Shown here: positions 28,524 through 48,679 of the stretch, in pieces
Numbering within the stretch: position 1 is the first letter of the stretch
Layout: every line of letters starts with the position of its first letter
Assembly: GCA_903862645.1 (NCBI GenBank)
Contig: CAIOZF010000085.1
Span: 1 to 64,000, forward strand
Length of the DNA stretch: 64,000 bases
DNA from: an uncultured Gammaproteobacteria bacterium
GTDB taxonomy: Bacteria; Pseudomonadota; Gammaproteobacteria; Pseudomonadales; Pseudohongiellaceae
Direction of reading: 5' to 3'
Notes under the pieces: model-generated
What the model saw: only the letters and a program-made list of their open reading frames with translations
What the model was told of the DNA's origin: nothing
The model's database searches: none
Made by a program: the position numbers and the translations under genes

Positions 28524-29258
28524 TCAGTTATTTTTTGTCACGGGGAAATTTGGGGTCAGAGTAAAAATACAGTGTTTACACTTCTTTTTGGGGCCGCGTC
28601 TTTTATGGCTAAGACAGTGTCCCGTCACTGCTTCCATTTCAAACCTGAAATGGTTCGCGCCCAGCAGGCCTGTGTGAATGGATCTGCGAATATCGGAAAG
28701 CAACGAGCCATCGATGTGTGATTCAAAAAGGTTTTGATAGTTGGCTATGCGTTCTCCTTCCGTCGTCCCTAATTGCAGATAGAGTTCATGTGGTGTGTGG
28801 AGTTTTGTGCGGACCCCTAATCCATTTGCCTGATAACTGGACCATTTATATTCAGCCGGCTCTCTCGCCATGCTCGCCCTTACCGGATTGAGTTCAATAT
28901 AGCGCTGACAATTCAGGAGATAAGTAGGCGCTTCAATCAAGCTAGAGTGGTAGCGCCCTTCCCAAAGCGTGCCGGAGCGACCATATTTTTGGTTGAAGTA
29001 GCGCACGTAGAATCGGCCCAAGTACTGCATCATCTTTGCGGTGGCGTTCGGCGCTTTCGGTGTAACTAGGAGATGGACGTGATTGGTCATGAAGACCCAC
29101 GCGTGAATCATGACGTTGTAGCGACTGGCGCCCTCGTGTAACCAGTGGGCGTAGGCGGCAAAGTCTGCGTTGGTGACAAAGCAGAGTTGTCGGTTATTCC
29201 CGCGTTGCACAATATGTTGTGGGATGTCCGGTGGGCACAGTCGTAAATTTCTTGGCAT
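28524..29258 (-). CDS. REP-associated tyrosine transposase (RAYT, Y1/IS200-like)
   Basis: 244 residues from the second ATG (29258), which is 9 bases after AAGG; an ATG three codons earlier lacks spacing. The family order is intact: PDIPQHIVQRGNNRQLCF, the HUH metal motif TNHVHLLVTP, FYVRYFNQKYGRSGTLWEGR, and the tyrosine motif RYIELNPVRASM with SSYQ. RAYTs are single-domain transposases that cut and join single-stranded palindromic (REP) DNA. The gene lies between inverted copies of a 26-base repeat, and the left copy is translated as part of the last codons (FTLTPNF). The same repeat recurs as a solo palindrome after ahpF, its likely substrate. Confidence 0.93.
   Translation of the reverse strand: MPRNLRLCPPDIPQHIVQRGNNRQLCFVTNADFAAYAHWLHEGASRYNVMIHAWVFMTNHVHLLVTPKAPNATAKMMQYLGRFYVRYFNQKYGRSGTLWEGRYHSSLIEAPTYLLNCQRYIELNPVRASMAREPAEYKWSSYQANGLGVRTKLHTPHELYLQLGTTEGERIANYQNLFESHIDGSLLSDIRRSIHTGLLGANHFRFEMEAVTGHCLSHKRRGPKKKCKHCIFTLTPNFPVTKNN
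28552..28577 (+). repeat. Family B repeat, left end of the RAYT element
   Basis: Begins GGGGTCAGAGTAAAAATACA. It is an exact 26-base inverted match to 29338-29363 and lies inside the 3' end of the RAYT gene. The same core forms the palindrome at 48582-48636. Confidence 0.9.
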
Positions 29259-29337
29259 GTAGTTCATCCTTGAACTTAATGTAGAGATTGTTGATTTCGC
29301 TCATGATGAGTTTAGGCGGTTTTCAGGAAAAGACCAA

Positions 29338-29363
29338 AAACACTGTATTTTTACTCTGACCCC
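29338..29363 (-). repeat. Family B repeat, right end of the RAYT element
   Basis: The inverted copy of 28552-28577, ending TATTTTTACTCTGACCCC on the plus strand. With the left copy it brackets an 812-base unit holding only the RAYT gene and about 80 bases of its upstream DNA. Confidence 0.9.
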
Positions 29364-29385
29364 ATTTTTTATTTCCTGGAAAGAA

Positions 29386-46386: not shown

Positions 46387-46950
46387 ATGTCTCTCATTAA
46401 TACCGTTATCAAACCATTCAAAGCCACTGCCTTTCACAACGGCGCCTTCGTGGAAGTGACCGACAAGACTCTGCTTGGCAAGTGGTCTATCGTGTTTTTC
46501 TATCCTGCAGACTTTACTTTCGTCTGCCCGACGGAGCTTGGTGATCTTGCTGACAACTACGACGAGTTCAAGAAGCGCGGCGTGGAAATCTACAGCGTGT
46601 CCACTGATACGCAATTCACGCACAAGGCATGGCACGACACTTCTGCCACCATTGGCAAGATCCAATATCCGATGGTTGGTGACCCCACTGGTGTCATCAG
46701 TCGCAACTTCGAGGTGATGATCGAATCCGAAGGTATGGCTGAGCGTGGGACCTTTGTGATCGACCCCGAAGGCCGTGTCCAGATTGTCGAGATCACGGCA
46801 GGTGGTATCGGCCGCGATGCTCAGGAACTGCTGCGCAAGGTGAAGGCTGCTCAGTATGTTGCCTCTCATCCTGGCGAAGTCTGCCCAGCCAAGTGGAAAG
46901 AAGGCGAAGCCACACTGGCGCCGTCGCTTGATCTGGTCGGAAAAATCTAA
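46387..46950 (+). CDS. ahpC: Alkyl hydroperoxide reductase, peroxiredoxin subunit
   Basis: 187 residues, the standard 2-Cys peroxiredoxin length. Peroxidatic Cys47 is in [10 protein letters not shown] and resolving Cys166 in GEVCPAKW; the start [16 protein letters not shown] is typical. It reduces H2O2 and organic peroxides in the cytoplasm and is recharged by AhpF, encoded 75 bases downstream. AGGAG lies about 8 bases upstream. A perfect OxyR-type half site in the upstream region suggests peroxide induction. A family A palindrome lies between the two genes. Confidence 0.97.
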
Positions 46951-47025: not shown

Positions 47026-48579
47026 ATGTTAGACGCCACCATGAAAAGTCAGCTGAAAACCTATCTTGAAAGAGTGACGCAGTCTTTCGAGATTGTTGCC
47101 TCTCTCGACGACAGTGAGAAGGCGCGTGAGCTGTGGTCGTTGCTGCAGGACATCGTGGCGCTGACCGACAAGATTACACTACGCAGCAATGGCACTGATG
47201 CACGGGTGCCTTCCTTCGCGCTGAATCGTCTCCAGGGTGGCCTGAGTCTGAGTTTTGCCGGCATCCCGATGGGCCACGAATTCACCTCGCTGATCCTCGC
47301 TCTGCTGCAGGTTGGTGGTCATCCACCCAAGGTCACCGACGACGTGGCGAATCAGATTCGCGGCATCGAGGGCGACTATTTGTTTGAGACATATTTTTCG
47401 CTCTCCTGTCAAAACTGCCCTGATGTCGTGCAGGCCCTGAACGTGATGGCCGTGCTGAATCCCAACATTCGTCACGTGGCCATCGATGGCGCTCTTTTTC
47501 AGGACGAGGTGGAACAACGTCAGGTAATGTCCGTGCCTTCGGTGTATTTGAACGGTCAGCTATTTGCATCTGGACGTATGGGAGTCGAGGAGGTTCTTGC
47601 GAAAATCGACACCGGGGCAGCCGCGCGTGATGCACAAAAGATCAGTGCCCGCGAACCATTCGATGTGCTGGTGGTGGGCGGCGGACCAGCCGGTGCGGCC
47701 GGTGCGATCTATGCTGCCCGCAAGGGCATTCGCACAGGCGTCGCAGCAGAGCGCTTCGGTGGGCAGGTGCTGGACACCATGGGTATCGAGAATCTGATTT
47801 CTGTTGCGGAGACCGAAGGGCCGAAGCTGGCTCGTGCGCTGGAAGAAAACGTGCGCGATTACAAGGTAGATATAATGAATCTGCAGCGCGCCTCCGCGCT
47901 GGTGCCGGCGGGCGAAGTGGGCGGTCTGCATGAAATTCGTTTCGACAGTGGAGCGACATTGAAGGCGAAGACAGTGATCGTTGCCACCGGTGCGCGCTGG
48001 CGTGAACTGAATGTGCCGGGTGAGACGGAGTATCGTAATCGCGGTGTCGCCTATTGCCCGCACTGCGATGGCCCCTTGTTCAAGGGCAAGCGCGTCGCCG
48101 TGATTGGCGGTGGCAACTCCGGCGTGGAAGCGGCTATCGACCTTGCTGGCATCGTGGGTCATGTGACGCTGCTGGAATTTGCCGACAAACTGCGTGCGGA
48201 CGCCGTGCTACAGCGCAAACTGTTCAGCCTGCCGAACGTCACCGTAATCGTGAGCGCGCAGACCAGCGAGGTGGTGGGTGATGGTCAGAAGGTGACAGGG
48301 CTCGCTTACAAGGATCGCGTCAGTGGCGAGCCGAAGGTTGTCGCGCTCGATGGTGTGTTTGTCCAGATAGGTCTGCTGCCTAACAGCGACTGGCTCAAGG
48401 GCACCATTGACCTGTCCCCGACAGGCGAGATCGTCACCGACGCTCGTGGCCAGACCAACGTGCCCGGCGTGTTTGCCGCCGGTGACGTGACGACCGTGCC
48501 CTACAAGCAGATCGTTATCGCCATGGGCGACGGCGCCAGGGCGTCGCTGAGCGCGTTTGATCACCTGATTCGCCACTGA
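47026..48579 (+). CDS. ahpF: Alkyl hydroperoxide reductase subunit F
   Basis: 517 residues. The N-terminal double-thioredoxin domain has a redox pair in SCQNCPD (Cys128/131). A thioredoxin-reductase-like part follows: FAD motif [20 protein letters not shown], the active-site YCPHCDGPL near 340, NAD(P) motif [19 protein letters not shown], and the final FAD motif GVFAAGDVT. It passes NADH electrons to AhpC. GAGGACG precedes the ATG. A family B palindrome begins 2 bases after the stop and can serve as a terminator. Confidence 0.97.
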
Positions 48580-48581
48580 AT

Positions 48582-48636
48582 AAATTTGGGGTCAGAGTAA
48601 AAATACAGGCTGTATTTTTACTCTGACCCCAAATTT
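48582..48636. repeat. Solo family B palindrome after ahpF
   Basis: 27-base perfect arms (starting AAATTTGGGGTCAGAGTAAA) around one G. The core equals the repeats that flank the RAYT gene near 28.5 and 29.3 kb, so it looks like a non-autonomous substrate of that enzyme. A partial CCCCCAAATTTCC follows directly. Confidence 0.92.
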
Positions 48637-48656
48637 CCCTCTGCCCCCAAATTTCC

Positions 48657-48679
48657 ATCGCGGGCAGGCCCGCTTCCAC
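48657..48679 (+). repeat. Single REP unit (family A)
   Basis: ATCGCGGGCAGGCCCGCTTC followed by CAC, a single palindromic unit, 20 bases after the family B palindrome and about 65 bases before the PepSY gene. Confidence 0.7.

Follow-up and report, generated by a model that had tools for sequence, protein, structure and literature searches.

Candidate gene-less dimers of TIRYT element ends in a gammaproteobacterial genome: the perfect palindrome behind ahpF

REPINs, the repeats of RAYT groups 2 and 3, are extragenic, gene-less pairs of two inverted short ends that are tied to a Y1 enzyme and occur in hundreds of copies. A related arrangement, the TIRYT or TIRtron, is described in the available text of Di Nocera 2013 (PMC3733652) as a RAYT-like transposase flanked by long GGGGWSAS TIRs, with TIR repeats that are moderately abundant elsewhere in the genome, many of them as dimers or clusters, with self-complementary tracts in some TIRs, and with the highest TIR counts in S. 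maltophilia. The enzymes have been surveyed from another angle by Quentin 2018 (PMC6006769), whose accessible text gives TnpAY1 subclass 2.1 the motifs NHVH, W[EQ] and YIELNP and a median length of 238 aa, and assigns to it 291 of the 292 sequences of RAYT group 1 (in the group scheme of Bertels 2017). As far as that text goes, subclass 2.1 occurs in 14.9% of strains (Table 1), no REP-like sequences lie near its genes and no REP-like substrate was identified for it; the 'double foot' REPs of subclass 2.4 could, by its account, be a product of central deletion in a pair of inverted REPs.

The window, that is, the whole stretch of 64,000 nucleotides analysed here, holds both a Y1 transposase gene with long TIRs and, directly behind ahpF, a perfect palindrome whose arms repeat the ends of that element. 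We think it rather likely, from the comparisons set out below, that a TIRYT element gave rise to the palindrome as a non-autonomous TIR dimer, that the enzyme moves such dimers with the help of guide pairing, and that template switching homogenizes them. The features concerned are these:

28524-29267, minus strand: Y1/HUH transposase (TIRYT, RAYT group 1), 247 aa, motifs NHVH, WE, YIELNP
28546-28577, plus strand: left TIR of the transposase element; its first 27 nt equal the palindrome arm
29338-29364, minus strand: right TIR of the transposase element
46387-46950, plus strand: ahpC (AhpC-TSA), by Pfam
47026-48579, plus strand: ahpF, the gene upstream of the palindrome, by Pfam
48582-48608 and 48610-48636, no strand: arms of the TIR dimer (perfect palindrome), loop at 48609, computed
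48584-48587, plus strand: ATTT flank directly 5' of GGGG, proposed cleavage/target side (putative role)
48588-48600, plus strand: 13-nt segment GGGGTCAGAGTAA separating flank and guide; GGGGTCAG fits the TIRYT consensus GGGGWSAS
48601-48604, plus strand: AAAT, proposed internal guide complementary to 48584-48587 (putative role)
48631-48634 and 48614-48617, minus strand: mirror pair of flank and guide, respectively (putative role)
48637-48654, no strand: micro-duplication of the right foot, CCCTCTGCCCCCAAATTT, which copies the palindrome foot partially and in degenerate form
48657-48679, no strand: half of an unrelated REP family (ATCGCGGGCAGGCCCGCTTCCAC) near the palindrome

The palindrome, at 48582-48636, consists of two 27-nt arms of sequence AAATTTGGGGTCAGAGTAAAAATACAG that are 100% complementary around a 1-nt loop, and it begins 2 nt after the end of ahpF, at the coordinates given in the original prediction. 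Its region folds as RNA at -49.3 kcal/mol, compared with a shuffle mean of -23.5 (z -7.7; 0 of 200 shuffles equal). The claim that its core equals the repeats flanking a RAYT gene also holds: in the Y1 transposase element (28546-29364), about 19 kb away, the left end, 28546-28572, is identical to the arm at 27 of 27 positions, and the right end, 29343-29363 on the minus strand, matches it across the 21-nt core, with a differing flank. Since the transposase reading frame continues across the left TIR of its own element (28524-28577), the repeat encodes the last residues of the protein. A known RNA family was rejected as an identity for the palindrome: the five Rfam matches all fall far below their gathering scores and concern miRNA and snoRNA models, which can pick up perfect hairpins.

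The enzyme carries the marks of the TIRYT group. Its Y1_Tnp (HUH/Tyr) domain is recognized by PF01797 at E 4.8e-13 and 49.7 bits, above the cut-off of 23, and it contains the subclass 2.1 motifs NHVH, W[EQ] and YIELNP, a pattern matched in 7 of the 10 loci searched, the window included, with no match in L295-L297. The length of 247 aa fits the C-terminally extended HTH type, with Pfam reporting Y1_Tnp alone; shared motifs and a long protein make up the likeness to subclass 2.1, with its median of 238 aa, as the PMC6006769 text presents it. Long GGGGWSAS TIRs stand on both sides of the gene, at 28546-28577 and 29338-29364, and TIR repeats, dimers among them, recur elsewhere in the genome, as in the TIRYT/TIRtron of the available PMC3733652 text. 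Among broader models, the NCBIfam REP-associated tyrosine transposase (NF047646) scored 63.3 bits, under its cut-off of 80, and the NCBIfam IS200 equivalog 23.4 bits, under its cut-off of 55; a sequence search of solved structures gave 0 matches at E 0.001, and the phage records gave only one, a 33% partial match. Judging by motifs and ends, the enzyme appears better named a TIRYT (RAYT group 1, TnpAY1 subclass 2.1). In contrast to the survey of subclass 2.1, as far as its text goes, a dispersed palindromic family here matches the gene's own ends.

The palindrome, in turn, appears to be a TIR dimer and neither a GTAG REP nor a REPIN, an identity that we rejected on the grounds that the arm carries no GTAG-type tetranucleotide and no GC-rich REP hairpin. 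It does consist of two inverted end copies as one unit, and it resembles REPINs in being an inverted end pair without a gene, but differs from them in its GGGGTCAG-end arms, in having no GTAG-tagged REP hairpin and in its number, about 20 copies. With an enzyme that has the motifs and TIRs of a TIRYT, and with a repeat other than a GTAG REP, the REPIN is an analogy only. The original prediction of a non-autonomous, REPIN- or MITE-like substrate accordingly survives in its MITE-like part, a derivative that is multicopy, sits at gene 3' ends and is present or absent among relatives, but the name REPIN has to be given up.

Several observations concern other enzymes of this kind. A second Y1 transposase family is present in the related genomes G005, G004 and G008 (L183, L184 and L185, respectively), with other TIRs (CGCGCGGGTCAGACCC); in the distant Bacillus relatives L059 and L061, the ends are themselves palindromic (GGGGGTCAGACCCCC), a different end design; and 4 of 14 fetched plasmid TIRYT genes (L388, L390, L392 and L393) adjoin annotated toxin-antitoxin genes of the HipA, death-on-curing and PemK/MazF types.

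The genome-wide count of the core that had been proposed earlier gave 40 matches to the 21-mer TTGGGGTCAGAGTAAAAATAC (at most 3 mismatches) in the 3.1-Mb draft and 0 for the reversed-pattern control; with these counts and the z of -7.7 for the fold, a chance origin of the palindrome is rejected. Most of the places are head-to-head pairs of 21-nt arms lying 0-12 nt apart. In the genome of the window (G000), 18 dimers are readable, including a fold-back contig end (C6), and the other matches comprise the transposase element and single arms truncated by the end of a contig (C158, C123); C120 likewise ends in a palindrome foot. Contigs C6, C123, C153, C158, C210 and C120 of this genome all end in or adjoining a palindrome, C6 by folding back, and with contigs ending at palindromes, draft genomes probably undercount the true copies. 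The C6 end itself (L034, with a 44-nt symmetric flank) is probably an assembly artefact whose site is represented by L130. Across 14 genomes of the genus, the arm GGGGTCAGAGTAAAAATACAG (at most 2 mismatches) has 40 matches in G000, 53 in G005, 30 in G004 and 19 in G008, and 0 or 1 in each of the remaining ten. From G000, G004, G005 and G008, we read 63 dimers, L034 counted among them, at 38 distinct sites, 17 of which are common to at least two genomes; L034 was dropped from the arm and flank counts given below for 62 dimers and 37 sites. Going by these copies, the ahpF hairpin appears to belong to a set of about twenty gene-less, near-identical copies of the TIRYT element ends in its genome.

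The distribution of the palindromes follows that of the enzyme in part. Within the genus, enzymes at 67-100% identity occur in G000, G005 and G008, with 19-53 arm matches there, and in G001, G002, G010, G011 and G013, the best enzyme is 44-49% identical, arm matches number 0-1 and the genomes' own TIRs are different. G002 and G010 have 28 and 39 matches, respectively, to the dimer pattern GGGGTCAGAG (duplicated feet count twice). Of the 35 dimers recorded for them (from fetched stretches, one entered twice), nearly all bear arms of the own TIR, ..TAACTTGA or ..TAATTTGA, with exceptions that include L387:6029 and L382:5239; matching own arms in diverged relatives hold for these two genomes. Among 137 genomes of the family, GGGGTCAGAG dimers and the enzyme (E 1e-20) occur together in 25, dimers only in 15, the enzyme only in 26 and neither in 71, a co-occurrence above chance (Fisher p 1.7e-4) that is also seen outside the window's own genus (17, 12, 25 and 69, in the same order; p 0.003).

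Palindromes in many unrelated genomes lacking the RAYT had been named in advance as the finding that would break the link between enzyme and substrate. The co-occurrence speaks for the link, but G004 and G059 keep dimers without a close enzyme: G004 has 15 dimers, a best enzyme of 32% identity and an orthologous locus without the transposase element, and G059 shows no enzyme at E 1e-20 but has five GGGGTCAGAG dimers, of which the one read (L283) has exact arms. A dimer with the window arms, identical or with one change, is also found in G073 (no enzyme at 1e-20), G060 (32%) and G079 (39%). The enzymes at 61-63% identity (L293-L297) have TIRs of the form ..TAAATATCCAG or ..TAAATATACAG, and the TAAATATCCAG arm was seen in dimers of G056 (no enzyme at 1e-20) and G057 (31%) only; the arm reading left out the dimers of G105 and G130, which have 61-63% enzymes, and the single dimer read in G092 has the window arm, one base off that genome's own TIR. 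Palindromes without a close enzyme may reflect loss of the enzyme after the spread of the dimers, transfer, or another enzyme acting in trans.

Comparison of orthologous sites bears on whether the dimers move. Behind ahpF, the palindrome is present only in G000 and absent from all 12 other genomes of the genus in which the site can be read (G009 gave no match, the G008 contig ends ~60 nt behind the gene, and the G001 sequence is masked over a stretch further downstream), where G004 and contig C27 of G005 read CACTGAAGAAATTGCC and G006 reads CACTGAATAATTGGGAG, as compared with CACTGAATAAATTTGGGG in G000. G005 has two ahpF 3' regions, 92-94% similar, on contigs C27 (L199) and C3 (L316), which would point to a strain mixture or a duplication. 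In one exact filled/empty pair, G005 reads CTTCTGAAATTT[GGGG..CCCCAAATTT]CTCTATC and G004 reads CTTCTGAAATTTCTCTATC; in another (site 5), G005 reads TCAGGAAATTT[GGGG..CCCCAAATTTCTGACCCCAAATTT]CAAAATC, with an added foot copy, and G004 reads TCAGGAAATTTCAAAATC. Both pairs have one AAATTT in G004 and AAATTT-GGGG..CCCC-AAATTT in G005, as would be expected of insertion 3' of an AAATTT kept in the left flank, or of precise excision. For IS608, the available text of PMC5934647 describes insertion 3' of a TTAC target that is retained in the left flank, and these two filled sites resemble such insertion, 3' of a retained left flank and without target duplication. At site 5, G000 and G008 are without GAAATTTC, so that the G004 state could be an excision scar. 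The third exact pair, site 6 (G005 C12:22359, inside a REP hairpin), has no AAATTT in its G004 counterpart, so that GAAATTT would have arrived with the insert; as G008 has a full REPIN here and, in G000, the DNA behind this gene runs into a palindrome foot at a contig end, either state could be older. Insertion 3' of a fixed left-flank target thus fits two of the three exact pairs and does not fit one. At one G010 site, the counterpart is also without the flank, in the sole comparison of G002 with G010 (L383 with L365), which lies in a diverged neighbourhood. At L150:2903, compared with G004, half a palindrome has been lost. A further candidate empty site, L140:936 against contig C3 of G005, was rejected, a deletion between REP halves having removed it.

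A segment of ~6.3 kb between two G005 palindromes (L150:2903-9165) is missing from contig C156 of G008 (L322), which joins the outer flanks via a REP-like sequence; the deletion is possibly linked to the palindromes or to the REP.

The same sites allow the dimers to be weighed as relics of internal deletion, each a full TIRYT element that lost its gene and has been immobile since. The equality of dimer arms with element ends, the variable loops and the single ancestral place of the transposase element in three genomes would all accord with such an origin. Against it stand the 38 dimer sites in four genomes, compared with full elements with these arms at one place only, such that every site would need an independent full insertion followed by collapse, and the small filled/empty differences just described; we regard immobile relics as improbable and continue with dimers that would move as such.

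Placement relative to genes is strongly biased. Of the 38 sites, 32 could be classified, with 19 between convergent genes, 12 between tandem genes, 0 between divergent genes and one (L046) inside a called ORF, the calls being a length heuristic and not gene models and the other six sites having too short a flank or neighbour. All 31 intergenic sites, in four genomes, have the nearest stop codon within 38 nt, which bears out the expected clustering at gene 3' ends, and a few feet overlap the end of a called ORF, by up to 19 nt. Among 61 control gaps of at least 60 bp, 10 are convergent, 33 tandem and 18 divergent (Fisher 2.9e-5 for the convergent class and 4.6e-4 for the divergent class). Together with the very stable fold, this placement could be read as the signature of a host regulatory hairpin, either a terminator or a 3' mRNA stabilizer, that is under selection and resembles the transposase ends only secondarily. 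However, the scan for terminator-like sites (a stem followed by a T run) at the ahpF palindrome gave none for the plus strand, which is that of ahpF, and three for the minus strand. On this count, we rejected an intrinsic terminator of ahpF or ahpCF, and the suggestion in the original prediction that the palindrome can serve as a terminator for a stress operon is not supported. Moreover, there is no such hairpin behind ahpF in the 12 other genomes, the arm sequence is conserved beyond what the structure demands, with two consensus arms in 54 of 62 dimers, and avoidance of promoters and genes would give the same placement. A host hairpin thus seems to us very improbable as the explanation; protection of the mRNA 3' end by the palindrome is possible.

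The palindromes often lie within or close to members of a different REP/REPIN family that is abundant (GTGGGAGCGGGCCTGCCCGCGAT), as at L140:860-1010, L132, L131, L139, L142 and positions 48657-48679 of the window, and the two hairpin families thus nest within common intergenic gaps.

Many TIR ends show complementarity between the bases that adjoin GGGG on its outer side and a stretch beginning 13 nt inward. Examples are ATCAAA-GGGGTCAGAGTAA-TTTGAT, AAGT-GGGGTCAGAGTAA-ACTT (Shewanella, L055), ATCAA-GGGGTCAGGTTCC-TTGAT (G001) and, in the window palindrome and the left TIR, ATTT-GGGGTCAGAGTAA-AAAT. The G011 dimer L279 shows a double change, ACCAAA with CTTGGT, and the G002 dimer L365, with flank ACCAAA and guide TTTGAT, is a counter-example. 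The 34 loci examined for ends yielded 48 ends, 43 of them distinct (no GGGGTCAG end lay in range at the nine loci L306-L314, and one each at L303 and L305). For the 43 distinct ends, 132 of 172 pairs match at offset 13, compared with a permutation mean of 70 (0 of 2000 as high), and for 30 distinct arms, 96 of 120, compared with 48.3; offset 13 is the sole strong peak, with a weak excess at 12, 18 and 19 in the former set and at 18 in the latter. When ends are collapsed into 26 flank/guide types, 63 of 104 pairs match, as against 38.1 (0 of 10000 as high), with 12 types pairing in three or four of four positions and 14 in two or fewer. In 14 ends from other taxa, namely, plasmids (Iodobacter, Rhodospirillum, Pseudomonas, Skermanella and Sporomusa) and distant genomes, 36 of 56 pairs match at offset 13, as against 21.6 (0 of 5000 as high, to three decimals); the next best is 26 of 56 at offset 14, and offsets 9, 11, 12 and 14 exceed the permutation at p 0.02-0.03. 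The sequences are related and the permutation ignores kinship, so that all these p-values are too optimistic.

The analyses of types and of other taxa used a stricter range, with 44 ends, at least two of which were wrongly assigned inside genes; the plasmid sample took 14 of 25 records, 8 of those 14 plasmid loci and 2 of the 6 distant genome loci having no GGGGWSAS end in range, and the six distant loci were inspected before the pairing rule was formed. Poor pairing, at two of four or fewer, is found at the right end in the window (flank AAAT, two of four paired), at one end each in G005 and G008, at both ends of L110 and L300, at the left end of L054, in most types of the TAAATATCCAG group and likewise in the distant loci L057, L058 and L061. 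The 4 nt outside GGGG, then, tend to pair with the 4 nt lying 13 nt inward, and about half of the end types fit poorly; the fixed offset and its recurrence in new taxa support the rule.

In the literature searched (mostly open-access text, without figures; Bertels 2017 lies outside it), fixed-offset flank:guide pairing in TIRYT ends was not found. The text of PMC3733652, as far as available, contains neither such pairing nor empty sites of TIR dimers nor arm homogenization, all of which are indicated here; two things appear to be new, both of them computational, namely, the flank:guide rule and the signs of hairpin homogenization. The pairing recalls IS608, in which a short guide inside the element is complementary to the bases at the edge of cleavage (PMC5934647 and PMC8266576, in their available text, the latter assigning the GTAG of group 3 REPs a role in the choice of the cleavage site similar to that of the IS200/IS605 guides). 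As these texts have it, however, the IS608 guide lies 5' of a separate hairpin, whereas here flank and guide would together form a stem around the 13-nt GGGGTCAG loop. We would infer that the flank:guide pairing selects the target. More speculatively, TIRYT ends might carry their own address, with the guide of 4-6 nt located 13 nt inside the GGGGTCAG end choosing the site of cutting and joining in single-stranded DNA; palindromes of ~45-55 nt would then be minimal gene-less transposons, programmed by a guide that diverges together with the flank and homogenized by replication. Part of this reading, which as a whole we entertain only tentatively, is that guide and flank change together between families, as in ATCAAA..TTTGAT, ACCAAA..TTGGT, AAGT..ACTT and ATTT..AAAT.

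In most dimers, the two arms are alike, and the left and right flanks covary. Of the 62 dimers, 54 have two consensus arms, one (L176) has the same substitution in both arms and seven have changes in one arm. Set against each other at positions -1 to -7 over 37 sites (without L034), the two flanks agree in 218 of 259 cells, compared with 178.6 under permutation (0 of 10000 as high); L040, at a contig end, has too short a flank and was left out of this count of the 38 sites. The covariation is significant singly at -1 to -5 and at -7, at -6 it is not, and a signal at -12 (p 0.001) perhaps stems from foot copies. Such partial copies of the foot lie in tandem nearby in 25 of 62 dimers (31 of 119 feet), as against 0 of 118 for a control segment, and at the shared site L134/L170 they differ between the genomes, so that foot copies come and go, which slippage, or repeated insertion with hairpin deletion, would explain. 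At L134/L170, the one-base loop also differs, being G in one genome and C in the other when both are read in the same orientation.

Template switching between inverted repeats, according to the available text of PMC8604942, homogenizes the arms and inverts the spacer, and in the present case it would work on the dispersed derivative of a bacterial transposon and on its target flanks. The covariation of the flanks could also come from the choice of target, namely, from pre-existing AT-rich palindromes or REP hairpins into which the dimers went, and it is true that AAATTT is itself palindromic and that several copies lie inside or beside the REP/REPIN family. However, some paired flanks are not palindromic (TAGATTT/AAATCTA and GGATAATT/AATTATCC), loops flip at shared sites and flanks change at the same site; we consider target choice unlikely, although still a serious contender, as the source of the covariation, and template switching would be the cause of the homogenization.

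The scenario that we favour can thus be put as follows. The palindrome would consist of both ends of the TIRYT element that lies at 28.5-29.4 kb, joined head to head with almost nothing between them, and the TIRYT, an HUH/tyrosine single-strand transposase, would recognize each end as a small stem-loop, its stem formed by the 4-6 nt outside GGGG and the internal guide 13 nt inward. The enzyme would cut and join at the edge of the flank, so that full elements and gene-less dimers alike could be copied or moved in single-stranded DNA. Copies would persist mainly just behind genes, where they are least harmful, and replication through the hairpin would correct arm against arm and flip or copy neighbouring bases by template switching, which would keep the arms perfect and make the flanks complementary.

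If this scenario is correct, it would give RAYT group 1, a large group of Y1 transposases, its substrate and a gene-less mobile form, and the rule of a guide located 13 nt inside GGGGTCAG would predict cleavage flanks from sequence alone. It would also explain the accumulation, behind genes, of perfect hairpins, which can break assemblies and may affect the 3' ends of mRNAs.
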